In this document: positions 8,031 through 46,415 of the stretch, piece by piece
How positions within the stretch are numbered: position 1 is the first letter of the stretch
How the letters are laid out: every line of letters starts with the position of its first letter
Assembly (NCBI GenBank): GCA_947174185.1
Contig: CAMWHY010000003.1
Span: forward strand, 1-47,176
Source: an uncultured Lachnospiraceae bacterium
Lineage (GTDB): Bacteria > Bacillota > Clostridia > Lachnospirales > Lachnospiraceae
DNA length: 47,176 nt
Reading direction: 5' to 3'
Program-made: the position numbers and the translations under genes
Notes under the pieces: model-generated
The model's input: only the letters and a program-made list of their open reading frames with translations
The model's database searches: none
Told to the model about the DNA's origin: nothing

Positions 8031-8064
8031 AGAAACCAGCCTTTCCACATATTATTCCACACAA

Positions 8065-28424: not shown

Positions 28425-29128
28425 TCTCTCCTATCATGGTCTCTTACTGCTTTTCCCTGCTGTATGATCTGCCGGAATTTTTCCAGATCCGCCATCGTCG
28501 TGATCTTAAAGTTCCCTTCATCCCCCGGAATCGGCACTGCATCCATCCCTGCTTCCAATGCAGCCTGCAAGGAGCCGGTAATATGAAGAATCCTGTCAGG
28601 CAGCAACCCCTTTACAGCCTCATAATACCGCCCAAGCAAAAAACCTTCCGGCGCCTGCCCGGCAGCAAGCTTTGCCCGTTGGGCTGTTCCGGTAAATTTA
28701 CCATTTTCATATAGATATATTGTATCTTTCAATGGGAGAATCGGCGTAACTGCCTCATGATTTTTTAATGTCTTTAGAATCTCCGTAATCGTCGCGCTGC
28801 CCACCAACGGTCTTGCAGCATCGTGTATGATCACATGGTCTTTGGGATCAGCATATGTCAGAATGTCTGCCAATCCATTCAAAATAGAATACTGCCGGTT
28901 TGCTCCGGGTCTGGAAAATCCCGCCAGTTTCTTTCCCGCATATTGTGATATCAGATCATGCCAGCTCTCATCCGCCACAATCTGGACCCGCTCTATCATC
29001 TCATGTTCTTCAAAAATGTCCAATACATAAGAAATGATGGGTCTATCCTCTACTCTGATATACTGTTTGGGGATATCCGTCCCCATCCTTGCACCTGTAC
29101 CACCGGATAAAATCAGTGCGATATTCAT
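28415..29128 (-). CDS. IspD/TarI-family cytidylyltransferase
   Basis: 237-aa nucleotidyltransferase that would attach CMP from CTP to a sugar- or polyol-phosphate. Seen: NTP-binding LILSGGTGARMGTDIPKQY, RPGANRQYSILNGL, VIIHDAARPLV and the C-terminal GDEGNFKITTMADL. This is the IspD fold. Context favours the TarI/Bcs1 branch (pentitol or pentulose 5-phosphate) over isoprenoid IspD, since the neighbours are a pentulose-phosphate 3-epimerase and a TarJ-like dehydrogenase rather than ispF. The ATG shares its A with the TGA of the preceding gene, suggesting translational coupling. Confidence 0.83.
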   Translation of the reverse strand: MNIALILSGGTGARMGTDIPKQYIRVEDRPIISYVLDIFEEHEMIERVQIVADESWHDLISQYAGKKLAGFSRPGANRQYSILNGLADILTYADPKDHVIIHDAARPLVGSATITEILKTLKNHEAVTPILPLKDTIYLYENGKFTGTAQRAKLAAGQAPEGFLLGRYYEAVKGLLPDRILHITGSLQAALEAGMDAVPIPGDEGNFKITTMADLEKFRQIIQQGKAVRDHDRRECS

Positions 29129-29790
29129 CAGAATTTCAACTCCCTTATCCCCTTTAAGACGTCTCCATAGGATCTGCCCCGCCCAAAAAGAAGCGTTGTT
29201 CCCAGTACAAAACCATCCATTCCCTTTGGAGCAAACTCCCGGATCTTATCCGCACTGCAGGCTCCATCCCAAAATAGTTCAAAATGCATCTCCTCTTTAA
29301 GCGCTAATAGCTTATCGATCTTTTTCCCCATATAGGGAAGATACATCTGACCAGCATTGCCGGGATTCACTGTCATGACAAGCACTTTTTTTACGATGCG
29401 CAGCATTTCCATAATATATTCCACACTAGTTCCCGGATTAATGGCAATTCCCGGAATCATTCCGGCATTAATAATCTTTTGGAGAGTGGTAGAGGCATGG
29501 TATTCTGCTTCCGGGTGAATATAAACTGTATCTCCCTTACGCAGCGCACCTAAGAAAATTTGAATATTGGAATTGGGATGCTCTATCATAAGATGAACAT
29601 CCAGCGGAGTCTTTGTGGCAGAGGCAATAAACTGCAAATCATTGTAAGACATCGCAAAATTGGGTACGAACCGTCCATCCATAATATCAATATGAAAGGA
29701 ATCAATCCCACCCTCTTCCAGAGCCCTTACTTCTTTTTCAAGGCAGCCGTAATTAGCACACATCATTGAGGCTGTTAATTTAAAATTCAT
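29128..29790 (-). CDS. Ribulose-phosphate 3-epimerase-like enzyme
   Basis: 220-aa TIM-barrel protein of the Rpe/AlsE family. Metal and catalytic elements are present: FHIDIMDGRFVPNF, PLDVHLMIEHP, YIHPEAEYH, TVNPGNAGQMY and the final Asp in FWDGACSADKI. It departs from housekeeping Rpe in the last two motifs (usually VNPGFGGQ and VDGGI), so it may be a specialised paralogue acting on a pentulose or hexulose phosphate. As first gene of an overlapping trio with a cytidylyltransferase and a dehydrogenase, a role in supplying xylulose 5-phosphate (or ribulose 5-phosphate) for a CDP-pentitol is inferred. The 212-bp upstream gap (29791-30002) is AT-rich; no firm promoter was seen. Confidence 0.82.
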   Translation of the reverse strand: MNFKLTASMMCANYGCLEKEVRALEEGGIDSFHIDIMDGRFVPNFAMSYNDLQFIASATKTPLDVHLMIEHPNSNIQIFLGALRKGDTVYIHPEAEYHASTTLQKIINAGMIPGIAINPGTSVEYIMEMLRIVKKVLVMTVNPGNAGQMYLPYMGKKIDKLLALKEEMHFELFWDGACSADKIREFAPKGMDGFVLGTTLLFGRGRSYGDVLKGIRELKF

Positions 29791-30002: not shown

Positions 30003-31703
30003 TTAATAGTAAGCTCCCGCTTCCACTTCGACAATCGTAATTCCAGTCTGCACTGACGTACTGCTGTCCGACAGTTCGGAAACTGTCTCCGCGGGTGCCT
30101 GTGAAGACATACTGCTTCCTGTAGTCCCAGCATCGTCTCCTGATACATTGCTGCCTGCCGAATCAATCGTCTCTGCAACGTCAGCACTACTGCCATCTTC
30201 TGTCTGCGCAGTTTCTGTCTCTATATCTGTAGCATCATCATTATCTGTCAATACACTGTCTTCTGTTTCACCATGATTATCTGTAACATTATTTTCCGAT
30301 ATCACATTGCCCAAATCATCTGCAGATTCATGGTGATCTTCTCCAGTTTCTTCTATATAATTGTTTTCCACATTCTGCACTTCCGAAGGCAGAACTTCCC
30401 CGTTTTCTGATACGTTGTTATCTGATTCGCCGTTCATTAAGATACTGTTATCCGATACGTCGTTCATTGAGACACTGTTATCTGATACACTGTTCATTGA
30501 GATACTGTTATCTGATACACCGTTCATTGAGATACTGTTATCCGATACACCGTTCATTGAAATACTGTTATCCGATACACTGTTCATTGAGATACTGTTA
30601 TCCGATACACCGTTCATTGAGATGCTGTTATCTGATACACTGTTCATTGAGATACTGTTATCCGAAATACTATTGTCTGATACAGTATCTTCATTGTTTA
30701 CAATTGGGTCCACTTTCCATGTCACAACAATCTGCGGAAGCTCAGCAAGATACTCCCAACTGCCGTTTGGATTACATGCCCCCGTCAGACCAAAGGAATA
30801 TTGCTCCTCTCCAGCTCCTTCGATCGCTTCATCCATTGATATCTGTCCCATCTCATAAATAATCTTTACTTCTCCACTTTCTGAAAGCGGAACCACATTG
30901 CCCTTATCATCCACCAATGCTAAATAAAGACTATTCCTGTTATCCCCTTTAAAGGTAGGATCATTCGTTAAGGAAATAGTATCATGATTCTGCAGACTTG
31001 CCGTCAATGTAATCATGACCGGTACTGTACTCTGGCTCGTAATCGTCAGTTGATCACTTCTGCTGGAATAATCGTATCTTCCTTCCGTATTTCTAAAATA
31101 AAGCGTACTTCCTTCTTCAAAAGAAATATTACCATATTTTACACCATTCGTAGCGGTGATCAAACGCTGCGGATCTATAATATAATCAAAGGGCTGTACG
31201 CCGTATTCACTAATCGCAGGCTGATCTATGGCTACAATTTCTTCCTCTGTTACAACAGGCGAAACCGTGTTTCTCCTAATGACAGAATCACTTTCTGCTT
31301 CAGAGTCTTCCGCTTTAGCGCTTTCCACTTCTGCAACGGCATCTTCCGTATCAGAATTTTCCGTATCTACAACAGCTTCTTCTGTATCATGGTTTTCCGT
31401 TTCTACAACAGCTTCTTCTGTGTCAACGTTTTCCGTTTCTATTTCCATAAAAACATCTTCAGTTTCTGTACTTTGCGTTTCCGAAATAGCATTTCCTGTA
31501 TCAGTGCTTTCCGTTTTCATAATTACATTTTCTATATCAACGCTATCAATATCAACATTATCAATTTCTACAATAGTACTTTCTGTGGAAACGCTGGAAG
31601 TATCTGCCCCAGATGCAGCCGCATAGCAAGAAAACCCTTGCAACAGAAGGGTTGAAATAATGCATACAAATACGATTAGGTTTTTCCAGAGATAATTTCT
31701 CAT
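30003..31703 (-). CDS. Secreted repeat protein sharing a domain with the 45.4-46.3 kb protein
   Basis: About 566 aa. The first 30 residues from 31703 (MRNYLWKNLIVFVCIISTLL, ending CYAAA) form a signal peptide; the frame also opens at 31751, but that ATG has a cramped ribosome binding site. An acidic region follows with 12-residue repeats like TENxDTEEAVVE, then a beta-rich domain (DPQRLITATNGVKYGN to LPQIVVTWKVDP), then nine 10-residue repeats of the type SDNSISMNGV, and an Asp/Ser/Thr-rich tail. There is no LPXTG or membrane anchor. The beta-rich domain aligns by eye with the protein at 45357-46343. Ser/Asn/Thr-rich repeats next to glycosyltransferase genes suggest a glycosylated surface protein. 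Function is otherwise unknown. Confidence 0.8.
   Translation of the reverse strand: MRNYLWKNLIVFVCIISTLLLQGFSCYAAASGADTSSVSTESTIVEIDNVDIDSVDIENVIMKTESTDTGNAISETQSTETEDVFMEIETENVDTEEAVVETENHDTEEAVVDTENSDTEDAVAEVESAKAEDSEAESDSVIRRNTVSPVVTEEEIVAIDQPAISEYGVQPFDYIIDPQRLITATNGVKYGNISFEEGSTLYFRNTEGRYDYSSRSDQLTITSQSTVPVMITLTASLQNHDTISLTNDPTFKGDNRNSLYLALVDDKGNVVPLSESGEVKIIYEMGQISMDEAIEGAGEEQYSFGLTGACNPNGSWEYLAELPQIVVTWKVDPIVNNEDTVSDNSISDNSISMNSVSDNSISMNGVSDNSISMNSVSDNSISMNGVSDNSISMNGVSDNSISMNSVSDNSVSMNDVSDNSILMNGESDNNVSENGEVLPSEVQNVENNYIEETGEDHHESADDLGNVISENNVTDNHGETEDSVLTDNDDATDIETETAQTEDGSSADVAETIDSAGSNVSGDDAGTTGSSMSSQAPAETVSELSDSSTSVQTGITIVEVEAGAYY
30400..30683 (-). repeat. 30-bp coding tandem repeats (SDNSISMN units)
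   Basis: Nine 30-bp units encode SDNSISMNSV or SDNSISMNGV; six or seven are near identical and the last two toward the C-terminus are degenerate (SDNSILMNGE, SDNNVSENGE). A partial unit SDNSI precedes them. Near-identical DNA between units implies recent expansion or gene conversion, so copy number is likely to vary between strains. Confidence 0.9.
31333..31441 (-). repeat. 36-bp coding tandem repeats in the acidic N-terminal region
   Basis: Three units of about 36 bp encode variants of ENxDTEEAVVET. They give a highly negatively charged, probably unfolded stretch between the signal peptide and the folded domain of the secreted protein. More divergent relatives continue toward the signal peptide. 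Confidence 0.75.
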
Positions 31704-31797
31704 CCTGATCTTTTCATCTCCTAAAATTAAGTTCCCAGAATTAAGTTCCATCTTCTCCAGCTTCTTAATACTAACTACATTTAACCGCTGTATTGTT

Positions 31798-32251: not shown

Positions 32252-33322
32252 TTAAGTGTTATGTTTCATAAACTCCGAATACTGATTCTGCGTTTTTCCC
32301 CTGTTCTCCCGTTCCTCTTCTTCCATCCATCCACCAAAGAAATAGTGAATAGATACCGTATGCTCTTTGATCTTTTCCTCACAGCTCAAATAATCATATG
32401 GATGAAATACACTTGCCGGATATACGGTCATATCATTGATAATTTGTAATGTATTGTCAATTCTCATTCCATGCCGGATAAAAGGCATTGTTTCATACAA
32501 TCCGTTTGTTTCTATGTTCAAGCTCCCGTCACTCATTACAAATGGAAATTTCAACCGATAGTCAAGCATTTCCTGTATCATAGGATGATGGGGAACTGCG
32601 CCAATACCGCCGCCGGAATTAATGTTACCCCATTGTTCTACACCAACAAAGCCTTTCTGATGCAGAAAATCATCCAGTGGTTTCAACAGTTTTACATCCG
32701 TGTCCAAATAAATGCCGCCATACTCATATAAGATATCCAGCCTTGCTACATCAGTAACAAATCCCCATTTTTTATGCTCCGCCGCCTGTCTGGTATATTC
32801 ATACTTATCAATATCAAAGTTGTTTTCATCCCATCGTAATATCTCATAATCAGGGCAATACTGGTTCCAACTTTCCATACATTCTTTTAGAAAATCCGGA
32901 AGTTCCTTACCTCCAAACCAGCAATAATGGATTTTCTTTGGGATCTTTGGCCGTTGGTCGATCATCTGCATCATGGGAACGATATAACAGTCTACATCAG
33001 TAAGCGCTTCTATGCCATCAAGAAAATTCACAACAGAATAGAATTTACTATTAGTAAGCAAAACCACCGCATCTTTAGAAATCCTTTTCAGCACCTCCGG
33101 CAGCCTGATTTCATACTCATAGGTTCCGATCACAACGCTCTTTCCCGTTTTACGCTCATCTATATCCACGTAACACTCCACATAATCGTGCAGCTGGTAT
33201 GTATTAACAATGTAGGGGACAACTATCTGGCCAATCATGCCTGCGCCATATACAAAAATACGGCTGTTTCGTTCCTTTATATTTTTCGCAAACTCCAGAT
33301 AAGTGGTCCTTTTCAAATTCAT
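32252..33322 (-). CDS. Rossmann module fused to a GT32 glycosyltransferase
   Basis: 356 aa. Residues about 18-105 are the small Rossmann-like module that recurs in this locus (RIFVYGAGMIG at 21-31). From about 124 it is a GT32/Gly_transf_sug glycosyltransferase of the OCH1/capsule type: KIPKKIHYCWFGGKELP, DVARLDILYEYGGIYLDTDV (DxD at 207-209), EQWGNINSGGGIGAVPHHP and a C-terminal HYFFGGW. It would transfer a hexose from a nucleotide sugar in the cytosol. It is the last gene of the locus. AAAGGAG lies 11 nt before the ATG. No terminator is evident after it. Confidence 0.85.
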   Translation of the reverse strand: MNLKRTTYLEFAKNIKERNSRIFVYGAGMIGQIVVPYIVNTYQLHDYVECYVDIDERKTGKSVVIGTYEYEIRLPEVLKRISKDAVVLLTNSKFYSVVNFLDGIEALTDVDCYIVPMMQMIDQRPKIPKKIHYCWFGGKELPDFLKECMESWNQYCPDYEILRWDENNFDIDKYEYTRQAAEHKKWGFVTDVARLDILYEYGGIYLDTDVKLLKPLDDFLHQKGFVGVEQWGNINSGGGIGAVPHHPMIQEMLDYRLKFPFVMSDGSLNIETNGLYETMPFIRHGMRIDNTLQIINDMTVYPASVFHPYDYLSCEEKIKEHTVSIHYFFGGWMEEEERENRGKTQNQYSEFMKHNT

Positions 33323-33351
33323 TGCAGCAATAACTCCTTTGATTCCTTAAT

Positions 33352-34425
33352 TCAACGCGGCATTGCATATAAGACAGTCTCACTCGCGCCATTCGCGTGA
33401 TGCCTTACGTACAGCTTGTATTCCGGAACAAGTTCCTTGATATATAATGGAATTTCATACATATCCGCAGCCTTATGATAAATACAAATTGCAAGTTTTG
33501 GTTTACAACGCTGAATGGTATGCCTTGCTCCCTTTAGCGACTCCAATTCTGACCCCTCAACGTCCATTTTTATAAAAGTAACATTCTCATCAGATGCTAT
33601 AGCATCATCTATCGCCATCACTTCAATGCTTGTCCCGCCACTCTCTGAAATATGAGATCTTCCATCAGAAGAAGCATCGAAGCTGATTGTCTTATTCTCG
33701 CTCCATGTTCCTTTCCCAATGATTTTCACAACCCCATCTTCAAAATGTAAATTTGCCACTTTTTCACATTTGGCATAATTATTCAGGTCAGGTTCAAATG
33801 CGTAAACCCTCTCCAGAGTCTTACAGTGGTCTTTCAGTCTGATGGAAGATGATAAATCACAGCATCCCGCATCCACAAATATCTCCTTCTCCTCAAATGT
33901 CATAAAGTCTGGATTAAAATACTGCTCCTCCTGTGCCACAAAAATATAAGGACCAACACTAAATATCCGTTTTTCCTCTATTCCATTCTTCATTAAATCA
34001 TTTTTTATTTCCGGAAAATATTTTGTAGAGGTAATAATGATGCTGCTTTCCTGATCCTCCAAAAGTTCCTCCGGCGCAATCACCTTATAACCTTTAAAGT
34101 TATTCTTTCGTTTTTTTTCATCAGAATCACAAAAGCACTTTAACCGCTTATCATTTTCAAAGTAATGAAATGTAGCGTGGGCGCCCTCACCAACCCCATA
34201 TAGGATAAAAGGCCGATCCTGTGGAATCCTTGCAAGAAGATTTGGAATTTCCGTATCGTTCAAAATTGCCAGATCGGGAACATACCGGTCAACAATATAT
34301 CTCATATAATGATATTCCCCAGTAATCAGGAAATTCAGCCGGTTCAGATAAATATCTTTCGATTCCTCATCCTCCAGCCAGCTGTATATTCTACGAAAAT
34401 CAGAAACTACTTTTGACGCATGCAT
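33352..34425 (-). CDS. Rossmann module fused to an FkbM-family methyltransferase
   Basis: 357 aa. An N-terminal helical part (1-70) precedes the Rossmann-like module (FILYGVGEGAHATFHYF, with YGVGEG at 76-81, and IIITSTKYFPEI later). The FkbM methyltransferase domain runs from about 180: EIFVDAGCCDLSSSIRL (motif I variant), VYAFEPDLNNYAKC, and the signature IKMDVEGSELESLKGA at 286-300. FkbM enzymes methylate sugar hydroxyls or related groups. GGGAGG is 6 nt before the ATG. It lies 14 bp after the Stealth gene. Confidence 0.86.
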   Translation of the reverse strand: MHASKVVSDFRRIYSWLEDEESKDIYLNRLNFLITGEYHYMRYIVDRYVPDLAILNDTEIPNLLARIPQDRPFILYGVGEGAHATFHYFENDKRLKCFCDSDEKKRKNNFKGYKVIAPEELLEDQESSIIITSTKYFPEIKNDLMKNGIEEKRIFSVGPYIFVAQEEQYFNPDFMTFEEKEIFVDAGCCDLSSSIRLKDHCKTLERVYAFEPDLNNYAKCEKVANLHFEDGVVKIIGKGTWSENKTISFDASSDGRSHISESGGTSIEVMAIDDAIASDENVTFIKMDVEGSELESLKGARHTIQRCKPKLAICIYHKAADMYEIPLYIKELVPEYKLYVRHHANGASETVLYAMPR

Positions 34426-34439
34426 ACTAGTCCTCCCAA

Positions 34440-35456
34440 CTATTTTTCAAAGGATGACTTTTCCGGCAGGACACTTTCCAATGCACGGTTAATCTCATCC
34501 CGTATCTCCACAAACTCCTCCGGCGTGCAGTCCTCCGTCAGACACACCATCTGATGTGGTTGATCAACAATATCCTCCGCTACCTTTTTATAGTTATCTA
34601 TAGTTACCAAATATGGCTCCCCCAAGGTCTTTCTTGGAATGAAGTCGCCTGTGCATAACTGCCAATACCGGACGATACACTGGCTCAAATCCGTATAGCC
34701 ACGAAAATGATTGGAGGAAGCCAGCGCCAGCCTTTCCGGCTCTATCTCCCATAAATGCCGCAAAACTGATTTTTTTAAAGCAACCGGCATGTGTCTGTCA
34801 TGAAAGCCAACAAAATGATTCCAATAACTCAACCCCTCTGTCCTTTGCAGCAGCTCTCCATACCCGTCATAAAACCATTTCTCCCTGTTTTTCTCCTGAA
34901 CTTCTCTTTTCTGAAAATGCCGGTTAATAAAAAGCAGGTTATTGATTTTCACCATACAGGAATATTCTGTAATCTGTCCTACATCCACCGGCATAATAGG
35001 CGATTCCACCGCTTCGTCGCATACCATTTGGTTCTGAAAATAATAATCTTCCCGAATCTCTGACAACGGGAAAATATCGTCATTAAATAAAATAAAATTC
35101 TCTGACAATTCATCAATCCTAAAATAGTTCATCTCTATGGTGTTAGAATTGAAGGTCGGCAGATACTCCTTAGGGATATAGTCCTCATGCTTAATCAGTT
35201 TTAATTTCGGATGATCAGGATTCAGGAAATCAGGAATCTGTCCGCATGTCACCAGAAAAACTTTACGCACCCACGGCATATATCGTTCAATCCCCCGGAA
35301 AATAAGATGAAGGTTATCCCAGCTTTCATAGCGCACATTGGAATTGGCATTGATATCCATTCCACAGCTTACTGCATATTCATTTTTCTTTTCCTGCCAA
35401 CGAATGTCGCTGCTATCTACCCACGGAATGATAATATCAATCGGATGGCTGCTCAT
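34440..35456 (-). CDS. Stealth-family sugar-phosphate transferase
   Basis: 338 aa. Stealth proteins transfer a sugar 1-phosphate from a UDP-sugar to a sugar hydroxyl, forming phosphodiester-linked glycans. Conserved regions are visible: CR1 as PIDIIIPWVDSSDIRWQ; CR2 as YESWDNLHLIFRGIERYMPWVRKVFLVT, then YLPTFNSNTIEMNYFRIDELSENFILFNDD; CR3 as FHDRHMPVALKKSVL; and a CR4-like segment SSNHFRGYTDLSQCIVRYWQL. ATG codons occur at 35462 and 35456; GGGGG abuts the first and is 6 nt from the second, which I choose. The gene starts at the stop of the preceding methyltransferase gene. It is one of the few members of the locus without the Rossmann module. Confidence 0.9.
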   Translation of the reverse strand: MSSHPIDIIIPWVDSSDIRWQEKKNEYAVSCGMDINANSNVRYESWDNLHLIFRGIERYMPWVRKVFLVTCGQIPDFLNPDHPKLKLIKHEDYIPKEYLPTFNSNTIEMNYFRIDELSENFILFNDDIFPLSEIREDYYFQNQMVCDEAVESPIMPVDVGQITEYSCMVKINNLLFINRHFQKREVQEKNREKWFYDGYGELLQRTEGLSYWNHFVGFHDRHMPVALKKSVLRHLWEIEPERLALASSNHFRGYTDLSQCIVRYWQLCTGDFIPRKTLGEPYLVTIDNYKKVAEDIVDQPHQMVCLTEDCTPEEFVEIRDEINRALESVLPEKSSFEK

Positions 35457-35458
35457 TT

Positions 35459-36418
35459 TCATCCCCCAATCTTATATATATTTAACAACGGATCATAAAG
35501 ATCCACCCTGACCTGACGATAAAGCTGTACTTTGCCGTCTTCCACAATTGCTTTATGGTAAAATGGATTTCCATATACAAGGAAAATATCCCGATTTCTT
35601 CTTTCCCAGCTTTCAAGGATATTATTGATGACTTTCCGCACCCCTTCTTCTCCAAACGGATTATAAAGGAAGAAAATACTGTAACCATCAATATCCTTGT
35701 ACTCTGTTGCATCCCCCGTTATAATATCCGCAGAGACGTTCAATTCCCTCATATTATTTCTGCAGATCTTTGCGATATCAGCATTCCATTCCACACCACC
35801 GACTTTTACCATGTCACTCATTACTGCCATCAATAGAATCTGTCCTTTGCCACACCCTATGTCCATAAAACTTTTTTCACAAGGCAGCATTCTTATTTCT
35901 TCAAAAACACGGTCAATAGAGGAATGATCAAAGGGCTTGCTTTCATAGTAGTCTCCACTGTATAAATCGGGTCTGTCTTCCTTTGTTACATAAGAAAAAT
36001 CAAGATTTGTATGACTTTTTTCCAGATACTCCAGATAACTTCCCCCAACCTCGCTGCGAACATCAAAATAGTCCTTGTCCTTTTCACAGCCAAGTTCTGC
36101 AAGCAACTTTTCTACTCCCTCATCTTTTCGGATCGTGAGCAGGATGATATATTCTTTCGGGTTAATATACTGTAAAATAGACGACCGAAATATAGTTGCC
36201 CATTTATCTCCGCAGGGCAGCGTAATATATTCGTCAATGTAATAATCAACAGGCATCCTTCCATCCACATCATAGAGCAAATGTGTCAGAAATGCACCGC
36301 CCTTACCGCATCCCCAGACAATCAGTTTTCTTTTCTGCCGAATCGCATATGTCACAAGATCCGATACATATGCATACATATCTCCTACAAGGTTTTTTCT
36401 TTTCTCACTGATCTGCAT
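35459..36418 (-). CDS. Rossmann module fused to a class I methyltransferase
   Basis: 319 aa. The module is at about 30-120 (KLIVWGCGKGGAFLTHLL). A SAM methyltransferase follows: SFMDIGCGKGQILLMAVM (motif I near 184-191), GGVEWNADIAKICRNNM (motif II acidic residue) and YSIFFLYNPFGEEG, where NPF resembles the NPPF/NPPY loop used by enzymes acting on N or O positions. The acceptor is unknown. The gene starts 3 bp after the PIG-L gene stop and has a weak ribosome binding site, so translational coupling is likely. Confidence 0.83.
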   Translation of the reverse strand: MQISEKRKNLVGDMYAYVSDLVTYAIRQKRKLIVWGCGKGGAFLTHLLYDVDGRMPVDYYIDEYITLPCGDKWATIFRSSILQYINPKEYIILLTIRKDEGVEKLLAELGCEKDKDYFDVRSEVGGSYLEYLEKSHTNLDFSYVTKEDRPDLYSGDYYESKPFDHSSIDRVFEEIRMLPCEKSFMDIGCGKGQILLMAVMSDMVKVGGVEWNADIAKICRNNMRELNVSADIITGDATEYKDIDGYSIFFLYNPFGEEGVRKVINNILESWERRNRDIFLVYGNPFYHKAIVEDGKVQLYRQVRVDLYDPLLNIYKIGG

Positions 36419-36421
36419 CTA

Positions 36422-37468
36422 TCAATCACCCATACCTTCCAACAGACTCCTTAAAGAGTATATTTTTTCGAAACCAAATGCTTTTAAGTTCCTCTCAATC
36501 TCCGGATATTCATAAATTACCGTTACAATTACCGGCAATCTGTGATCCGCTTTTTCTAAAGGAATGACTGGTATTTTACCGCCGTCAAACTGCCCTGCCC
36601 TGCGGTCTATGACCGCTTCTATATGGATCTTGGTGCCAGACAATTCCCGTATCAGAAGTTTTCCAAGTTCTCCATATCCATAGATATAAGTTGTTGTAAT
36701 TCCGTTCTTCAACAACTCGTCAACTATCCTGATGCTCTCTAAAAGCCTCAAAATCCATCTTTTTAATACCCAGCCGTTGACACGTTCCTTCTGTAATAAT
36801 ATCTCTGTCTCCGAAATCACCGAATCTGTTTTTTCAGATAAATCTATCTCCTCATATACCTCTATTTTCTTTCCCGGCATACGATAAAGCGTCCCCCGGT
36901 AACACGCGCATTGTTCTGCCAAAACATCATAGGGAAGTTCCTTTAATTGCGACTGGTGCAGACGAATCAGCTCACATTTTCCCTGCACAGCATCGGAAAT
37001 ATCCAAAAAATGCGTAGGCGACTGCAAAGGTGTATGAACTTCATATAGGTAACACTCCGGCATCTCTTCAGAAGCCACCTTTTTTGCCGCCTCCTTTACG
37101 CACAGGAACGCCGCTTTATGGTCGGGATGGTCATCCGATAATCCGGTAACGAAAATCTTGCTATATTCCTTCAAAGAGATTTCGGTCATACAGTCTGTAT
37201 GGGAAAGCAGGGTTCCGTCTTCTATGTCAAGCATTCTAAAACAGCCGACATTCAGCCGCTTCATTTCATTAAGAAATTCCTGTTTTCTGATTTGTTTTTC
37301 CTTCTCAGGCGCAGTATCTCCCTGACCCTGTCTTCCATCAGTCAATACAATGACTTCACATTGTTTTGCATACTGCAGCAAAACTCCACCGGGACCGATA
37401 CACTCATCATCCGGGTGCGGTGCAATAATCAATATCCTGTCATTCTCCCTAATGTCAAGCGCCTTCAT
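36422..37468 (-). CDS. PIG-L deacetylase fused to the Rossmann module
   Basis: 348 aa. The N-terminal half is a zinc-dependent PIG-L/LmbE deacetylase: LIIAPHPDDECIGPGG (HPDDE at 18-22) and SDDHPDHKAA (HPDH at 114-117), so the metal site is intact. Such enzymes remove acetyl from N-acetylated sugars. The C-terminal third is the recurrent module (YIYGYGELGKLLIREL, with YGYGELG at 263-269; then IEAVIDRRAGQFDGGKIPVI). GGAGG precedes the ATG. It overlaps the acyltransferase-like gene by 14 bp. Confidence 0.88.
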   Translation of the reverse strand: MKALDIRENDRILIIAPHPDDECIGPGGVLLQYAKQCEVIVLTDGRQGQGDTAPEKEKQIRKQEFLNEMKRLNVGCFRMLDIEDGTLLSHTDCMTEISLKEYSKIFVTGLSDDHPDHKAAFLCVKEAAKKVASEEMPECYLYEVHTPLQSPTHFLDISDAVQGKCELIRLHQSQLKELPYDVLAEQCACYRGTLYRMPGKKIEVYEEIDLSEKTDSVISETEILLQKERVNGWVLKRWILRLLESIRIVDELLKNGITTTYIYGYGELGKLLIRELSGTKIHIEAVIDRRAGQFDGGKIPVIPLEKADHRLPVIVTVIYEYPEIERNLKAFGFEKIYSLRSLLEGMGD

Positions 37469-38597
37469 CTATCCTCCGTTGATAATCCATGATGATCTTT
37501 TCTAAAATACTGTTCCAGTAATATACCTTTTCAAATCGGACTGCCAGAGCTTTCTCCACTTCTTCATCTTTGTTGTTCAACGTAATCAGTATTGCGTCTG
37601 CTTCCGGCAATTCATCTTCCGGTGAATATATTCTGATGTTCTCCGCGTCCGTTACTTTCCGATCGATTCCATAACCCACCGATAATGCGAGATTCTTTGA
37701 CAACTGCAGAAAGGAATGTCCGCAAACCCCGTAGCCGTAAAACCCTACGGAATCAATTTCCCTCTCTTGAAAGAATGCATTGATACCGTCGATCATTTCT
37801 TTACGGTAAATTGTGCCGCTATAGGCGGTGAAAGCCTCCGCCCCAAATCTTTTCTTATATATGTAACTTCCCCCGCCTAAATACAAGTATCTGCACTTTC
37901 GTTTAATAAGTTCTTCCATAAACTTCACATACATCAATAATCCCGGCGAGTATTCCTTTAACTCTGTATTATAGCTGAAGTTTTCAAAAAAAACGATATC
38001 CTCTGTCTGGCAAAAGAACGCTACTGCAACTTGGGTATCTCCTGCTTTCATCAACATTGCATCCGTCACATAATACCTGTCCAGATATTCCGATGCCGAC
38101 ATCCTATAATCTGTGCCATGGGTTTCTTTTTTCCATCTAAAATAGGTATCTACAATATGGTCCGGTATTTCATTTCTCGAATAAATTTCTATTCTTAAAT
38201 CTCCAACCCTTTCATCCAGCCACCTGAGCTTCCTTCGGATCGTTGCCCTGTCCCTGCGTTCCGCACGGTTCATCAGTTCATCAAAATCACCGGGAAGCGG
38301 CACCCGGATATCATTCACTTCTTCCAGAAAGTTGCCATAAGGATTGCCACATCTCGTCAACTCAATTGCACAGATCTGTTGATCTACAAAACACTCTTCA
38401 ATTACCCTGTCAAAGATATCCTGCGGCAGAGGTTTTCCCCAGATATTTATTTTGGCATTGACTCCCTCCGTATGGATATCCAGACAGTATTTTGTATCTG
38501 AGTCACAAAAAGAAATCCCATGATTTCCTTCCTTAAAAATAAGGTCAAAACGGTTATAAATTAAATTGTCTGTATCAAACCTTGCCTGTTCGTTCAT
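37455..38597 (-). CDS. FemAB/GNAT-like acyltransferase fused to the Rossmann module
   Basis: About 380 aa. Residues about 100-275 are a GNAT domain of the Acetyltransf_6/FemAB-like group: RATIRRKLRWLDERVGDLRIEIY, then EYSPGLLMYVKFMEELIKRK and YLYLGGGSYIYKKRFGAE. It could transfer an acyl or aminoacyl group to a sugar amine; the deacetylase next door might expose such an amine, and the ligase/carrier pair might supply the donor. The C-terminal part is the recurrent module (VGFYGYGVCGHSFLQL, YGYGVCG at about 287-293). The frame opens at 38615, but GGAG is 8 nt from the ATG at 38597. Confidence 0.8.
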   Translation of the reverse strand: MNEQARFDTDNLIYNRFDLIFKEGNHGISFCDSDTKYCLDIHTEGVNAKINIWGKPLPQDIFDRVIEECFVDQQICAIELTRCGNPYGNFLEEVNDIRVPLPGDFDELMNRAERRDRATIRRKLRWLDERVGDLRIEIYSRNEIPDHIVDTYFRWKKETHGTDYRMSASEYLDRYYVTDAMLMKAGDTQVAVAFFCQTEDIVFFENFSYNTELKEYSPGLLMYVKFMEELIKRKCRYLYLGGGSYIYKKRFGAEAFTAYSGTIYRKEMIDGINAFFQEREIDSVGFYGYGVCGHSFLQLSKNLALSVGYGIDRKVTDAENIRIYSPEDELPEADAILITLNNKDEEVEKALAVRFEKVYYWNSILEKIIMDYQRRIDEGA

Positions 38598-38598
38598 C

Positions 38599-39921
38599 TT
38601 AAACACTCCATACAATAGCTTCCTCAGCTATCCCCTTCGCCAAAAGAAATTCCCTGACCGCCATCGCCGTTTTCTTTTCCTCAATTGCAATCACTATCTT
38701 ATCCGCAGTTCCCGGAATGATTTCATCCGGAACGCTGACCAAACCTTCCAAATCCTTTAACATTGCTGCTTTCGCATCAAACCAGCCAACAATTTCATAA
38801 TTTGAATGCTTCTTTAACTGCCGATAATAACTCCGGCCTATGTTACCTGCCCCGTAAATGGCAATCCGATGATATCCTTTGATCCGCCGGAATGGAAAGG
38901 GAAACTGTTCCCCACTATCTCTCTGTAGTTTCTTCATTTTCCAAAAGAGATACTCCTTGGCGTCCCCATTCATAATCTGCCGGTATTCCTCCACTCTAGA
39001 AATCATGTCATCCTCTGCCATCTCATCTATACCAAACTCTGGAAATACCGTATTTTTGACAAAGTCATATACTTTCTCAAAATTAGAAAGGCTTCTCTGT
39101 GCCTCCACCAACCCGACATAACGTATCAAAATCTGATTCAAAAAGCTGCGTTGTACGATCTCATATCGTCCCCGCTCCTGCAATCCTGCTTTCAGATATC
39201 TCGCAGTTGATATAATATCCTCCACATCGATCTCTGCTTCGCCAAATCCCTGCAGACTTACAGGATTATTGATCCGATATGTTACTAGTTTGTCAGGAAT
39301 CCAGCTGATCCTTTCTGCCAATGCCATAGACAAGCAGACAAAATACTCGTCGTTATCCCGTTTTGAGTCTTGAAAAAAAAGACCTTCCCGTTCAATAAAT
39401 TCTTTTTTGTATAATTTGTTTTGTGGTCCGGAAAATGCAAAATTAAGGATATAATCCGGAATATCCCTGTAAGAAACCGTCCCTTGTTCTTCAAACTCAC
39501 GCACATAGGACGTCCGCAGATAACCGACTGCATCTATGTATTCACATGTGGCGTTATCATAACTGCGAATATCGCAGACCACAATATCGGAGCGATGCCT
39601 CCGGGCAGACGTAACCATTTGCTTTAGCATATCCTGCTCGCAAAAATCATCCCCGTCAAAAAAGAGCAGATACTCCCCCCCAGCATATTTCATTCCGTTA
39701 TTTCTAGCCACGCCCGCATATTGGTTAGACTGTCTGATCAGGCTTATGCGGCTGTCTTTTTTTACATATGCCTCTATGATTTCTGCCGTATCGTCCGTAG
39801 AACCGTCATCGACACAGATAATCTCAAAATCCGTATATGTCTGCTTCCTAAAGGAATCAAGACATTCTTCTATGTAATCTGAAATATTGTAGCAAGGTAT
39901 AATCACAGATATCTCCGGCAT
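38599..39921 (-). CDS. GT2 glycosyltransferase with C-terminal Rossmann module (a)
   Basis: 440 aa. Residues 1-230 are a GT-A fold family 2 glycosyltransferase: ISVIIPCYNISDYIEECLDS, IICVDDGSTDDTAEI, ARNNGMKYAGGEYLLFFDGDD (nucleotide-sugar/metal DGDD at 89-92). A helical segment follows. The C-terminal 90 residues are the recurrent module (HRIAIYGAGNIGRSYYRQL, YGAGNIG at 356-362; WFDAKAAMLKDLEGL). GGGAGGAAGG precedes the ATG. Its stop is 1 bp upstream of the acyltransferase start. It is paralogous in layout to the next GT2 gene. Confidence 0.87.
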   Translation of the reverse strand: MPEISVIIPCYNISDYIEECLDSFRKQTYTDFEIICVDDGSTDDTAEIIEAYVKKDSRISLIRQSNQYAGVARNNGMKYAGGEYLLFFDGDDFCEQDMLKQMVTSARRHRSDIVVCDIRSYDNATCEYIDAVGYLRTSYVREFEEQGTVSYRDIPDYILNFAFSGPQNKLYKKEFIEREGLFFQDSKRDNDEYFVCLSMALAERISWIPDKLVTYRINNPVSLQGFGEAEIDVEDIISTARYLKAGLQERGRYEIVQRSFLNQILIRYVGLVEAQRSLSNFEKVYDFVKNTVFPEFGIDEMAEDDMISRVEEYRQIMNGDAKEYLFWKMKKLQRDSGEQFPFPFRRIKGYHRIAIYGAGNIGRSYYRQLKKHSNYEIVGWFDAKAAMLKDLEGLVSVPDEIIPGTADKIVIAIEEKKTAMAVREFLLAKGIAEEAIVWSV

Positions 39922-39935
39922 TTCCTTCCTCCCAT

Positions 39936-41351
39936 TTACAAAATATCAAGAATACCATCTTTTTCACAGAAAATGGCAAATATATCCTCCTTGTATTGCG
40001 GATAAAAACTTATCATCCGTGTCCTACCGCAAACCTTTGATAAGTTGTCAAGCATCTCATCATTGTAGATATAACTTGATACGATGATAGCATCAAAAGA
40101 ATCATCGATTGCCGTATAGGAAATTTCCCTCATCCCCTCCTTGTAACCGAGTGGGTTTTCTGAAGTAATATAAATAATCATTGCATCGATTGTTCCTATC
40201 AGTTTTTTATAAATAGCAAACAACCCCTGCGTATGCTTTCCCGCACCATAAATACCAACTTTTTCACCACTCCTGTTAAACGGAAGCTGTTGCAATACTT
40301 CCACATATTTCTCCCGGAGTATATTAATCGTCTGGGAAAATATCCCTTCCAAAGATGCATCGTATAGATCCATCTGTTTCAAGCTATTTAAATCTAACAC
40401 ATAATCCAGAAACATATCTAAGTTTAATCTGTCTGATCTTTCTATAAGGGATTTTCCTATTCTTATAAATGCATCAAACAAATTTAATTCCAGATACATT
40501 TGTTTGCAGGATTTGATAAAATCATCCAATTCCCCATGCGACAACATACGTTTAAATATATGTTTATTTCCCGCAACAGCAAGGCGTAAGAAGCTTCTCT
40601 CATAAATGGTATAACTATTTCTATCTTGCAACTCCCTATATAAATCTTTCATTACATATGAATATAGCAGTGGTGTTTCATAATGACCATTTTGCAAATT
40701 GGATGTAATCCCCACTCTATGATGCACCAAAACCTCAGCTATATATGTAATCTGTTGCGCCAAAGCGATTTGCATATTTACAAAGTATATATCGTTATTT
40801 CTTGGGATAGAATGAAACTCTATTTTGTTTTCTTCAATAAATGCAGTGCGAAATAATTTTCCCCATGGCACCGATGTCGATGCCTGAAAAAGAACATCCG
40901 AAATTTCAGACGGATGAAAAGGGCATACATTTGGCATATAATATTGATTTAAATATCTGTTTTTTGAATAAATAGATCTGCCACTCTCATTATGGTAATC
41001 ATCTGCATCGCAAAAGCAGACATCACACTTTTTCTCCTCGCATTTATTTAACATCTTTTCAATCATATCCGGAGACAAAAAATCGTCACTGTCCAAAAAG
41101 CAAAGATACTCCCCTGCTGCATGTTTTATCCCCGTATTTCTTGCCTGTCCGGCATTTGCCCTTGACTGACGGAGCAATCGGAATCTAGAATCTCTTTCTG
41201 TAAATTTCCTGACAATATCTTCAGAGCCATCCTCCGATCCATCGCTAATACATAAAATTTCTATGTCCTTGTATGTTTGTACCTGAACAGAAAATAAACA
41301 CTGCTCAATATATTTTTCTGAATTATAGAATGGCACAATAATTGAGACCAC
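39936..41351 (-). CDS. GT2 glycosyltransferase with C-terminal Rossmann module (b)
   Basis: 471 aa. GT-A family 2 domain: SIIVPFYNSEKYIEQCLFS, ILCISDGSEDGSEDIVRKF, ARNTGIKHAAGEYLCFLDSDD (DSDD). A long helical middle region follows, then the recurrent module near the C-terminus (EKVGIYGAGKHTQGLFAIYK, about residue 366 onward). The frame opens at 41423 but those 24 codons lack family similarity; AAGGAG lies 8 nt before the GTG at 41351, which places VVSIIVPFYN at the N-terminus, so I choose it. This leaves a 95-bp gap after the propeller-like gene. Confidence 0.85.
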   Translation of the reverse strand: MVSIIVPFYNSEKYIEQCLFSVQVQTYKDIEILCISDGSEDGSEDIVRKFTERDSRFRLLRQSRANAGQARNTGIKHAAGEYLCFLDSDDFLSPDMIEKMLNKCEEKKCDVCFCDADDYHNESGRSIYSKNRYLNQYYMPNVCPFHPSEISDVLFQASTSVPWGKLFRTAFIEENKIEFHSIPRNNDIYFVNMQIALAQQITYIAEVLVHHRVGITSNLQNGHYETPLLYSYVMKDLYRELQDRNSYTIYERSFLRLAVAGNKHIFKRMLSHGELDDFIKSCKQMYLELNLFDAFIRIGKSLIERSDRLNLDMFLDYVLDLNSLKQMDLYDASLEGIFSQTINILREKYVEVLQQLPFNRSGEKVGIYGAGKHTQGLFAIYKKLIGTIDAMIIYITSENPLGYKEGMREISYTAIDDSFDAIIVSSYIYNDEMLDNLSKVCGRTRMISFYPQYKEDIFAIFCEKDGILDIL

Positions 41352-41446
41352 TGAATATTCTCCTTCTTTTTGACTCAAACTTCCCACACATAATACGGGA
41401 TTCTGTCCCAGAGCCTTCTGCATATATTAGAGAGCCATGAACAAAG

Positions 41447-42589
41447 CTATGATATACCACCATCCTTCACAATTTTCAAAAACTCTTTCAATTGAAGTGT
41501 CTCATCCGTGATATATGGTTTTTTCTTCAACCCATTCCAATATCTATATTCGTATTCTTTATCAGAAATCTCTATCCGAAAACTTTCAATACTTTGATCT
41601 TGAGTATCATAGATCAACCATTTCCTATTCCACCTTGTATGAAATATAATTTTTTCTTTTTCTTGACCTATAAGAATTACAGAAGCAGACTCTGTTCCAT
41701 ATGTAATAGAAGTCTCTCCTATAGCATTCATAATCTTCTCACACGGTTCAACTATCTTCTTCTGCATGTTTACCCTATAAACAGCATTCCCATTCATCTG
41801 ACACAAATAAATAAATCCACCAGACTCCAGAGGATTCCACCAACAGATATGTTTCGATTGATTTTTTTGAATCACAATTTCATCCATAAATCCGTTTTTC
41901 GGCGACCACAAAAACAGACTTTCTCTATTGTCCAATGAAGCCATAACCCATATTTTTTCGCCGACACGGACAATTCCATGTATCATTTTTATATCGTTGT
42001 GTTTTTCATAAACCGTCACTCTGTCTGTCAAAAGATCCAACCCAAACAAAGTCCCTGAAGCTCTCCCCGGAATATATACATTTTCCCCATCCCGCAAATA
42101 ACCATATGCAAAATAAGGTGATGTATCATTCTCCGGAATAAAATCCTGCACTTCCCTAATCCATGTATCTAAATACGACGTTTTACAATTGACTGCATTG
42201 ATCTTCAAAATAGCAGGGTAACTTAGCCCCAGCAAATAAATATTATTAGTATCTGAAAAACCTATCCCAAACTTTTTCTCCGCTAGATATTTTTTTTTCG
42301 TTTTTATAGTTGGCTGCATAACTCTTGTATACATTAAACTGTCTTTTTCAAAATCATAGAGAATTACATTATCTGATCCGGAAGGTATCAATACCAGATT
42401 ACCTCCCACCTGACAAACAGTCCAATACTCCCCAGAAGACAAAAAATCATATTCATCCATCCACCTTATGGCCTCTGCTTTCCTCCGTTGAAAATCCACT
42501 GAAAAAATTGCATTACAATCTATAGCGATGGCATATAATTTACCTTCTTTGATGATTCCCTGCACACAACTAAAATAATTCTTCTTCAT
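41447..42589 (-). CDS. Uncharacterised propeller-like protein
   Basis: 380 aa with no signal peptide. I do not recognise a family with certainty. The sequence is a series of beta-rich units of about 45-55 residues with recurring patterns such as GKLYAIAIDCNAIFSVDF, GGNLVLIPSGSDNVILYDF, GRASGTLFGLDLLTDRV, GEKIWVMASLDNRESLFLW and GFIYLCQMNGNAVYRVNM, as in six- or seven-bladed beta-propellers. It may be a glycan-binding or scaffold protein of the locus. It lacks the Rossmann module. GAGG lies 8 nt before the ATG. Confidence 0.65.
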   Translation of the reverse strand: MKKNYFSCVQGIIKEGKLYAIAIDCNAIFSVDFQRRKAEAIRWMDEYDFLSSGEYWTVCQVGGNLVLIPSGSDNVILYDFEKDSLMYTRVMQPTIKTKKKYLAEKKFGIGFSDTNNIYLLGLSYPAILKINAVNCKTSYLDTWIREVQDFIPENDTSPYFAYGYLRDGENVYIPGRASGTLFGLDLLTDRVTVYEKHNDIKMIHGIVRVGEKIWVMASLDNRESLFLWSPKNGFMDEIVIQKNQSKHICWWNPLESGGFIYLCQMNGNAVYRVNMQKKIVEPCEKIMNAIGETSITYGTESASVILIGQEKEKIIFHTRWNRKWLIYDTQDQSIESFRIEISDKEYEYRYWNGLKKKPYITDETLQLKEFLKIVKDGGIS

Positions 42590-42638
42590 CTTTCATTCCT
42601 CAAAAATATCACTGCACTGCCTTCGATCCTTTTTTCTG

Positions 42639-43586
42639 TCAGATCTCATATTCTCCATTAATCCATCCCAACAAATCAAACCAGGATTCTATTACCATGT
42701 CGTTATCATGAAAGTGTTCATGTTCAACGTATATACAACCCGGTAGATTTTTGCCAGAATATAGATAATTCTTCATGAGCAGCAGATGTTTCGTTTTCAA
42801 CGAACAAAATTCTTCTGCAACCTGATAAGGAAGCTCCATATTAAAAGGTGTAGGTTTTTTATAAGACATTATATAAATTATGTTATTCCAGTCAATCCAT
42901 TTCCTCATTCTGTTCCATCTATGGATCGCTTGAGATTCATCTTCCTCGTAGGCAAATATAACCTCCACATCTCTTACCCGTCCTACAGGTCTGATTCCGT
43001 CCCGAACTTTTGTCCAGTAGCCAAATACCATATCTTCCGAAAGATAATCTTTCGGATTTCTGCATATCTTCATAAATCCTTCCGCAGAAATACCCGTGTT
43101 AATGGTGGGGGAAGGCATACCCTTTCCTAAAGCTTTGTATATAAATCCCGCAGTACACCGGTCAGAAAGTATGGTAGGAATCTCCGCTGTAATCAGTTTT
43201 GCACGAAAATAAGACAAAAACTCATTGATATTATACCTTTTTGTACCTGAAGACAGATGCCTATAAATAGGGACCATGCAGACCGCATCTATATTTTCTG
43301 CGTACCAAGGCAATTCCGCCATCACACTGTCCGCCCGAAACGTTGCTACGATAATCCTTAATTTCATTTTGGGCAGCGAACGCAGCATTTCCGGATGAAT
43401 CATTTTCTTCCCCAACACAAAACATCCATCCCTGTCTGTCACCTTATCAATAAATCCCTCAAAATCTATACCGCATTTCTGCATAAATCGTGCCGTCCAC
43501 GTTCCATATTCCCCGGCGCCATAAATATAAATAGGAGCACTTTCCTCCTCAAAAAAAGCTTTTGTATCGTTGGTTACACTGATCAT
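42639..43586 (-). CDS. Rossmann module fused to a DUF1919 domain
   Basis: 315 aa. The module is at about 14-110 (APIYIYGAGEYGTWTARFM, YGAGEYG at 22-28). The remainder matches the DUF1919 pattern known from exopolysaccharide loci: LSDRCTAGFIYKALGKGMPSPTINTGISAEGFMKICRN, then DYLSEDMVFGYW and VEVIFAYEEDESQAIHRWNRR-like spacing (actual residues RWNRMRKWI). The catalytic role of DUF1919 proteins is unproven; acyl or glycosyl transfer has been suggested by context. The ATG overlaps the carrier protein stop by 4 bp (ATGA), implying translational coupling with it. Confidence 0.8.
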   Translation of the reverse strand: MISVTNDTKAFFEEESAPIYIYGAGEYGTWTARFMQKCGIDFEGFIDKVTDRDGCFVLGKKMIHPEMLRSLPKMKLRIIVATFRADSVMAELPWYAENIDAVCMVPIYRHLSSGTKRYNINEFLSYFRAKLITAEIPTILSDRCTAGFIYKALGKGMPSPTINTGISAEGFMKICRNPKDYLSEDMVFGYWTKVRDGIRPVGRVRDVEVIFAYEEDESQAIHRWNRMRKWIDWNNIIYIMSYKKPTPFNMELPYQVAEEFCSLKTKHLLLMKNYLYSGKNLPGCIYVEHEHFHDNDMVIESWFDLLGWINGEYEI

Positions 43587-43825
43587 TTCGGTTCCTCCGG
43601 ATCATATTTACTCTTTACAAGTTCCACAATGGAATTCATACAGGAAAAGTGATCCAGATCAGCAATCTCTTTTGGAAGAAATGTGATCTGAAATTCATCT
43701 TCCAAACTACAGATCAGATCCATAAGCTTATAAGAATCCATCATCGCAAGTAGTTTCTCCTCCGGTGTTATCTGCTTACCACATGTTTCTTCACACAACT
43801 GCTGTATTTTATTTCTGATGTCCAT
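43583..43825 (-). CDS. Acyl carrier protein-like protein
   Basis: 80-aa carrier of the ACP/PCP/DltC fold. The phosphopantetheine attachment site is MMDSYKLMDL, with Ser31 following Asp30 as in the DS motif, so loading by a phosphopantetheinyl transferase is plausible. Helix II-like LMDLICSLEDEFQITF follows. GAGG lies upstream of the ATG. It overlaps the ligase gene by 17 bp and the DUF1919 gene by 4 bp, so all three are translationally linked. It probably receives an acyl or aminoacyl group from the ligase. Confidence 0.86.
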   Translation of the reverse strand: MDIRNKIQQLCEETCGKQITPEEKLLAMMDSYKLMDLICSLEDEFQITFLPKEIADLDHFSCMNSIVELVKSKYDPEEPK

Positions 43826-45212
43826 CTGTCATTTCCTCTATTTTTTTATAATTTATTTTTCCGGTATCATATCTGGGAATTTCCGCCATCCAGCAACAGG
43901 TAATCCATTTCTTCGGAATCTTCATGTTCCGGTCGAGCAACAATTTGATATCATTATCTCTATCCCGTTCTGTTCCCGTATAACCGATAACGATATGGTT
44001 ATCCATGCCAATGCAGGCAAATTCCACATCCGAATACTCGTTATACAGATATTGTTCAAGATCGTCAAGACTTACTCTTTTATCCAGAATTTTCACATAC
44101 CTTGTTATACGCCCGCGCAGAAAGATACATCCAGCTTCATCAATGTATGCTATATCACCAGTATGTATCATCCCATGATTTACATCCTCTTTCATCAGAT
44201 GTTCGCGACAGCTTGCGTATCCCATACAGATGCTTTTGCTTTTAATGATCAGTTCCCCGGTATCAGCATCTATCATCGGTTCCATATTATCAAAAGCCTT
44301 TCCAACTGACCGCAGTTTGATACTATTCACATCAAAATTCATACCTGCAATGATACAGGTACATTCTGTCTGTCCATATCCAATCCAGAACTTGTCCTTC
44401 ATAAGTTTCACTAATTCTATCTGATTCTGTTCGGACATTTGTCCACCACCGGACATGGCATAGTTTAAGTTTTCCATCGTCTGTTCATCCCAGAAACAAA
44501 CCCTTTTAAGCATATCATATACATATGGCGTTGCCGCAAAATTATTAATCTTGGCACGAATAAACAATTCCCTAAAGTTTTTGCCGAGCACCATCTCATC
44601 CGAAACATACAGCGTCGCACCACAGTGCCAGTGCCAGAGGCAAAACGCAAAACCATAAGTATGGTTAACAGGCAACGGAGAAAGCCCCCTCTGTCCGCTT
44701 TCCATAGATAAATGTCTGACTGCATATTCTGAGTTATCATACAAATTTTCATAACTAAGTTTTACCAGTTTCGCGCTCCCTGTAGTTCCACTGGTAGATA
44801 AAAGCAGCGACACGTCCGGATGAATGTCGCACTTTTCATAACCTGTTTTCAAAAGAGCATGACTATCCAAATCCAGTCCCTGGCAAGGCGTATAGATATC
44901 TGCTTTTTTATGCTCCTTGGGGCAATAAATATATTGGGGTTGATATAAGGAGATTAAATTATCCAACAGTTTATCATCAATATCGGCAGATAAAAGCAAT
45001 GGCACACGATTTAGATACAGAGTCATATAGATCATTTCCATTGTTTCCATTTGATGATCGCACAACAAATACACAAGACTGCGTTCTTCCATATAACCGG
45101 CAATTTTTTCTGCCTTCTCTCCCAGTTCTCTATAGCTGATCGCTTTTCCTTTTCCATCAGTAATGGCAATCGCTTCCGACTGCATCACTTCCTTTCTGAA
45201 AACAGCTTTCAC
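43809..45212 (-). CDS. AMP-forming acyl/aminoacyl ligase
   Basis: 467 aa ANL-superfamily adenylating enzyme. Seen: P-loop LLLSTSGTTGSAKL (about 136-149), NFAATPYVYDML, YGQTECTC, MIHTGDIAYIDEAGCIFLRGRITRYVKI, and a C-terminal DTGKINYKKI with the catalytic lysine. It would activate a carboxylate with ATP and load it on the adjacent carrier protein, as DltA does for DltC; the substrate cannot be read. The frame opens at a TTG at 45236; AAGGGAG lies 10 nt before the GTG at 45212, which I use. First gene of the glycan locus, 58 bp after a hairpin terminator. Confidence 0.88.
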   Translation of the reverse strand: MKAVFRKEVMQSEAIAITDGKGKAISYRELGEKAEKIAGYMEERSLVYLLCDHQMETMEMIYMTLYLNRVPLLLSADIDDKLLDNLISLYQPQYIYCPKEHKKADIYTPCQGLDLDSHALLKTGYEKCDIHPDVSLLLSTSGTTGSAKLVKLSYENLYDNSEYAVRHLSMESGQRGLSPLPVNHTYGFAFCLWHWHCGATLYVSDEMVLGKNFRELFIRAKINNFAATPYVYDMLKRVCFWDEQTMENLNYAMSGGGQMSEQNQIELVKLMKDKFWIGYGQTECTCIIAGMNFDVNSIKLRSVGKAFDNMEPMIDADTGELIIKSKSICMGYASCREHLMKEDVNHGMIHTGDIAYIDEAGCIFLRGRITRYVKILDKRVSLDDLEQYLYNEYSDVEFACIGMDNHIVIGYTGTERDRDNDIKLLLDRNMKIPKKWITCCWMAEIPRYDTGKINYKKIEEMTDGHQK

Positions 45213-45269
45213 TATATTATATCTCCCTTCAACCAATTCCTAAAAAATATTTTATTTTTCATGACTTAA

Positions 45270-46343: not shown

Positions 46344-46415
46344 AACTTTTTTCCTCCTTGATTTAATTTGTATGCTTTTAATGCCCGTCATCCTGACAGG
46401 CAAAAGATACCTTTG

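Follow-up and report, generated by a model that had tools for sequence, protein, structure and literature searches.

The window analysed here, the whole of a 47,176-nucleotide stretch of contig CAMWHY010000003.1 from an uncultured Lachnospiraceae bacterium, contains at positions 32252-43586 a run of ten minus-strand genes, several of which overlap by a few bases in the open reading frame (ORF) calls. In eight of them the product contains an additional segment of about 90-105 amino acids (aa), referred to below as the module (Table 1). The catalytic parts assigned by Pfam are diverse and comprise GT32-type, FkbM, Stealth, PIG-L, GNAT (Acetyltransf_6) and DUF1919 domains as well as two of the GT2 type (GT2a and GT2b); one protein is of unknown family, and all Pfam matches of a second methyltransferase (MT2) lie below the cut-off. 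A sequence-only reading of this DNA had proposed that eight genes of the locus share a Rossmann-like module of about 90 residues, fused at either end to unrelated catalytic partners. This observation is confirmed, with the module on the N-terminal side in the GT32, FkbM, MT2 and DUF1919 proteins and at the C-terminus in the PIG-L, GNAT, GT2a and GT2b proteins, while the interpretation attached to it is partly supported.

Table 1. Modules and neighbouring features of the locus, with module-bearing anchor proteins of related loci; E values are those of the window-free profile
Feature	Position	Strand	Gene	Place	E value
Module in GT32 protein	32963..33280	(-)	32252-33322	N-terminal, aa 15-120	2.7e-8
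Module in FkbM methyltransferase	33913..34230	(-)	33352-34425 (FkbM domain PF05050)	aa 66-171, after a leader of ~65 aa	9.8e-22
Module in MT2	36029..36346	(-)	35459-36418	aa 25-130; weakest of the eight	
Module in PIG-L deacetylase	36425..36712	(-)	36422-37468	C-terminal, aa 253-348	2.4e-14
Module in GNAT (Acetyltransf_6) protein	37458..37769	(-)	37455-38615	C-terminal, aa 283-386	1.4e-7
Module in GT2a	38602..38886	(-)	38599-39921	C-terminal, aa 346-440	5.1e-13
Module in GT2b	39963..40280	(-)	39936-41423	C-terminal, aa 382-487	8e-6
Module in DUF1919 protein	43236..43553	(-)	42639-43586	N-terminal, aa 12-117	2.2e-12
Stealth-family protein	34440..35462	(-)		within the gene run, without module	
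Gene of unknown family	41447..42589	(-)		within the gene run, without module	
AMP-binding (adenylate-forming) ligase	43809..45236	(-)		upstream of the run, without module	
Ribulose-phosphate 3-epimerase, IspD-like cytidylyltransferase and zinc alcohol dehydrogenase	27201..29790	(-)		after the locus	
Secreted-looking protein with Ser/Asn-rich repeats	30003..31751	(-)		adjoins the run	
Anchor proteins (and eight more)	L117:6011-6487, L117:1601-2089, L056:4020-4496, L135:14148-14624				

The module and its kin

A test profile built without any row from the window recovers all eight modules with E values from 1e-21 to 0.004, the next ORF of the window following at E 1.5. Chance occurrences of GxGxxG motifs were considered and rejected, as leave-one-out and window-free profiles both detect the segments. 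No Pfam or NCBIfam model covers any of the eight above its cut-off. Differing folds would tell against a common module, and the AlphaFold models of two of them, that of the PIG-L protein and the weakest, are predicted to adopt the same fold; for the PIG-L module the AF2 model reaches a predicted local distance difference test score (pLDDT) of 91.2 and a predicted template modelling score (pTM) of 0.83. Structural neighbours of the modelled fold are 2g6t, the NADH domain of Rex, the regulatory and dimerisation domain of WbaP, and 3nkl, and further kin by sequence or fold are found in the N-domains of PglD and VioB and in the C-terminal domains of sugar C-methyltransferases (TcaB9, mycarose methyltransferase). 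The best-conserved columns include [YFW]GxG and an Asp of strand 2, and this pocket motif is intact in seven of the eight window modules, that of GT2b having lost the third Gly and the strand-2 Asp. By sequence for all eight, and by fold for the two modelled, the segments form a single family: small Rossmann-like accessory modules, non-catalytic and of the same type as CapD-N, PglD-N, WbaP-DUF and 2g6t-N.

The fold itself is already known, and the DUF1919 and FkbM fusions have solved precedents in 2g6t and in 2py6, a single fusion from Methylobacillus. The two modelled modules resemble residues 1-99 of 2g6t, a C. acetobutylicum protein that we take to be CAC2185, whose domain order with the module in front is also that of the window DUF1919 protein; 2g6t is, however, a single fusion, whereas the window module sits on many enzymes of one locus. 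The corresponding family PF22674 (C2185-like_N) is matched by 8 of 120 modules (E <= 0.01), the best window module (FkbM) scoring 19.6 bits against a cut-off of 27 bits. Closer in score is PF17836 (PglD_N, the N-domain of PglD, NeuD and VioB), to which 24 of the 120 match at the same threshold and whose cut-off of 23.4 bits is narrowly missed by the GT2a module (23.1 bits) and more widely by that of the DUF1919 protein (17.0 bits). In PglD-type proteins this domain precedes a sugar acetyltransferase domain, whereas the window modules have different enzymes as partners.

The DUF of WbaP, a large monotopic phosphoglycosyl transferase, and the N-domain of CapD/PglF-type dehydratases (3nkl) are fold kin, the two modelled modules resembling the WbaP DUF, whereas by sequence their family PF13727 matches none of the eight modules (E up to 5) and none of the 120 rows (E up to 0.01). 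Rex combines a similar fold with a DNA-binding domain, and no DNA-binding Pfam domain is present in any of the ten locus proteins. Nor do the modules belong to the NAD(P)-dependent oxidoreductases or SDR enzymes, since no oxidoreductase family scores above its cut-off and the 90-105 aa segments are joined to other catalytic domains. The enzymes of one pathway are likewise held together in Bcs3, the capsule polymerase of H. influenzae type b with its CDP-ribitol chemistry, although in the excerpted text of PMC10299916 they form one chain, whereas the window has separate chains sharing a common domain. What is new is the locus-wide pattern of module fusions; no report of the module as a locus-wide tag was recognised in searches of open PMC papers and listings.

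Distribution and descent of the fusions

For a wider view, 80 loci baited with the FkbM-plus-module protein, 14 further stretches (one of them from the window's genome) and the window itself were combined into 95 loci, in which 420 module matches occur in 414 of 2320 ORFs; both totals are slightly high, as L044, L045 and L047 duplicate parts of L085, L076 and L068. These three were left out of the nearest-neighbour, small-protein, pocket-motif, GT2-tree and pair analyses, and identical rows were removed before the first and fourth of these. Over the 95 loci the module is N-terminal in 166 cases, C-terminal in 154, in the middle in 90 and alone in 10. The sequence-only reading had suggested a search for other loci with three or more fusions, and such loci are plentiful: among the 80 baited ones at least one module protein is found in 69, at least three in 54, at least five in 31 and at least eight in 13, counts that are not frequencies because the loci were chosen by their bait. 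They reach up to 11 module genes, come mostly from Lachnospiraceae, and in L044, L072 and L101 include ten consecutive module genes, counting genes of about 150 codons or more. Without bait, at least three module matches share a contig in 5 of 34 other genomes of the same genus, and in a phylum sample of 119, at least three genomes besides the window's have three or more within 20 kb among the matches listed, down to E 5e-7. Among the other matches listed for this sample, many fall in open frames whose length, about 200-250 or 620-680 codons, fits Rex/NeuD and CapD-type proteins.

The range of partners is broad. Of the 262 non-bait module proteins, 119 were drawn at random; they match 67 Pfam families at E <= 1e-4, many of them overlapping, and the main partners among the 25 families listed include GT2, GT4, DUF4422, methyltransferases, FkbM, radical SAM, HAD, LicD, TupA, Glyphos_transf, RgpF and DUF1919. 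Some chains contain two module matches (L116:17211-19565, L103:6226-7611, L107:8825-11077, L107:5588-7483, L069:5592-7124 and L069:7009-8655).

Within the window's genome the module is concentrated here, eight of its nine matches (E<1e-3) falling in this locus. Only 2 of 38 GT2 matches carry it, both in this locus, so that the module as a general habit of the genome's glycan enzymes can be rejected from the 36 without it. In six genomes of the same genus, where the best 150 of 265 GT2 matches were judged and module and GT2 were paired by contig, position and open-frame length, it is present on 13 of 13 GT2 inside loci with at least three module matches and on 0 of 137 outside; when the locus is redefined without GT2, by at least two other module matches, 10 of 10 compare with 3 of 140 from the same best 150. 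The fetched loci give a softer contrast, with the module on 65 of 92 GT2 near at least three other module genes and on 5 of 25 elsewhere (Fisher 7e-6, ancestry uncorrected). A strict all-or-none rule, as suggested by the first comparison, is therefore rejected: 27 GT2 genes in module-dense neighbourhoods are module-free.

The sequence-only reading had further supposed independent fusions at this locus, which the descent of the modules does not bear out. The nearest relative of a module usually sits on the same kind of enzyme (57.9% of cases, against 19.4% in shuffles) and seldom in the same locus (5.1%, 20/394), which points to a locus assembled from genes already fused. The idea that one module was recently copied from gene to gene inside the locus is likewise rejected, as nearest neighbours are mostly elsewhere and on the same partner; some local copying is nonetheless possible, given that the same-locus share exceeds the shuffled 1.4% and the largest of 500 shuffles (3.8%). 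A FastTree tree of 146 GT2 domains shows 19 changes of module state, compared with a shuffled mean of 48.9, and at least 10 changes persist when weak branches are collapsed, so repeated gain or loss took place within GT2. On these sequence comparisons most fusions are ancient and have been passed on together with their enzyme, gain or loss having been repeated, and the loci collect enzymes that are already tagged.

Ten of the loci examined encode, in addition, 12 proteins of 158-176 residues without a catalytic domain, in which a hydrophobic N-terminal helix (mean hydropathy > 1.6 over 18 residues) is followed by a conserved stretch with invariant Trp and Lys and then by the module. These loci hold 4-10 module proteins each, the anchor protein included, and in L056, the nearest relative of the window's genome among the baited loci, an anchor directly precedes GT2a. 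No Pfam family covers the anchor proteins as a whole, single members matching Rossmann-type models weakly. Their pocket is mostly broken: only 3 of 12 retain the second Gly, which 324 of 382 other modules possess (Fisher 1.1e-5), and the set of Gly, Gly and Asp/Glu is intact in 3 of 12, as compared with 257 of all 394 modules. In a search of 194 relatives, chosen without bait and possibly overlapping the baited genomes, the anchor family was found in 18, some members being part of longer proteins or lacking the membrane helix. Other modules lie within about 11 kb of it in five of six genomes checked from these 18 (the G254 forms having no membrane helix); the sixth, G220, has one match only on that contig.

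Neighbouring genes and the putative glycan

The locus probably encodes a surface-glycan pathway, to which the AMP-binding ligase upstream would belong, judging from its position. The epimerase, IspD-like and alcohol dehydrogenase trio after the locus recurs in full in L056, L057, L073, L084, L097 and L117, and the epimerase is found in ten other loci at 72-81% identity. Together with the Stealth-family protein, which we take to be a sugar-phosphate transferase, the trio suggests a cytidine diphosphate (CDP)-pentitol-dependent glycan containing phosphopentitol. The gene of unknown family has a distant homologue in another module locus, L043.

Two related secreted-looking proteins (E 3e-11 between them) flank the locus, the one listed in Table 1 and one at 45357-46403, with relatives in seven other loci. 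The former contains a 30-base DNA repeat in 8.3 copies (30416-30665) that codes for the Ser/Asn-rich units. Both proteins are candidate acceptors, and the glycan perhaps sits on a secreted Ser-rich protein. Farther away in the window, a protein resembling undecaprenyl phosphate translocases (PF04018) is encoded at 1836-2711, some 30 kb off the locus, and at 6498-8048 a single protein with the seemingly unusual pairing of an N-terminal HAD hydrolase and a C-terminal Rce1-like (CAAX protease) domain.

A possible docking role

Our preferred reading, to which we assign a probability of about 0.42, is that the module serves as a common docking or nucleotide-responsive domain gathering the enzymes of one surface-glycan pathway. 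Modules on different enzymes would pair with each other and, in relatives, also with the small membrane-anchored module protein; the mostly retained pocket could let levels of nucleoside monophosphates, diphosphates or diphosphate-sugars (NMP, NDP or NDP-sugar) tune pairing or activity, much as uridine nucleotides act on WbaP, and the outcome would be a loose membrane enzyme cluster building one glycan. Pairing and nucleotide tuning are proposed by analogy with the DUFs of WbaP and EpsZ. Excerpts of PMC10942596 report that most dimer contacts of WbaP lie within its DUF, that the DUF is stabilised by uridine mono-, di- and triphosphate (UMP, UDP, UTP), and that UMP inhibits the enzyme with a half-maximal inhibitory concentration (IC50) of 4.1 uM; in those of PMC12802240, modelling places the dimer interface of EpsZ in its DUF, with the partner protein EpsW completing it. 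The coding overlaps at 38599-38615, 37455-37468 and 35459-35462, which depend on mechanical ORF starts, are compatible with coupled translation and count in favour of this reading, as do the common fold, the concentration of modules in one locus, the recurrence of such loci, the anchored stand-alone modules and the conserved pocket columns.

Several observations weigh against it. Foldseek alone returned no match with E < 0.001, about one third of the modules (137/394) are without the full pocket motif, and a search of the window's genome, 97% complete, yielded no anchor protein. Single fusions exist in the ninth module of that genome (C4:15585, outside the locus) and in PDB 2py6 and 2g6t. The sequence-only reading had counted similar modules, if equally common in single enzymes unrelated to glycan loci, as a refutation, and these lone fusions bear that objection out in part. 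Moreover, 27 of 92 GT2 in the dense neighbourhoods of the fetched loci manage without a module, a phylogeny-controlled test of independent pairs had 6 supported pairs only and was not significant, and modules travel with enzyme families, a pattern that plain inheritance also fits.

The main rival to docking is sensing in cis without cross-enzyme assembly: each module would regulate or dimerise its own enzyme on a shared nucleotide, e.g. UMP, UDP or cytidine monophosphate (CMP), giving shared feedback and no complex. We consider this somewhat unlikely. The WbaP homodimer formed through the DUF and its inhibition by UMP, as given in the excerpts of PMC10942596, fit it, as do the intact pockets of most modules in the window and overall and the presence of nucleotide binders such as Rex among the near structural matches. 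It would leave unexplained the membrane-anchored modules that have no catalytic domain, most of which (9 of 12) are without the second pocket glycine, and the methyltransferases and the deacetylase would seem to have no obvious need for uridine-nucleotide feedback.

Clearly less probable is the view of the module as an ancient, largely neutral or stabilising addition to certain enzyme subfamilies that happen to be traded between similar glycan loci. Nearest neighbours that share partner family far more often than locus, the clumping of module state on the GT2 tree and a pair test showing no phylogeny-independent link are what such hitchhiking would leave behind. Even after collapse, however, the state changes are repeated and yet presence tracks locus type (ancestry uncorrected), the motif is strongly conserved, and stand-alone anchored modules exist. 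Least plausible is a role in substrate handling, in which the module, acting as the tailoring or donor-binding half of each enzyme, would bind a sugar-nucleotide or acceptor carrier and present it to the catalytic domain: kinship with the PglD/VioB N-domains and the C-terminal domains of sugar C-methyltransferases speaks for it, but GT2- and GT32-type enzymes possess their own donor sites, nearly all GT2 matches of the window's genome are module-free, and S-adenosylmethionine (SAM)- and hydrolase-type partners have no sugar-nucleotide donor.

A bolder form of the docking reading, which we regard as doubtful, casts the module as a 'membership tag' of a pathway: unrelated glycan enzymes recruited to one type of locus would acquire this self-recognising docking domain, and contacts between modules, on the small membrane-anchored module proteins, would gather them into a nucleotide-gated glycan assembly line. 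Such a tag would be the bacterial surface-sugar counterpart of the docking domains in modular synthases. The case bears on how separate surface-glycan enzymes are kept together, and specific to a single glycan in the presence of dozens of similar transferases, a problem illustrated by the window's genome, in which only the two GT2 of this locus bear the domain of their neighbours. Should the module prove to be a tag for docking or common sensing, one could tell from sequence which enzymes belong to a pathway, and the anchored module proteins of related loci would be a concrete scaffold candidate.

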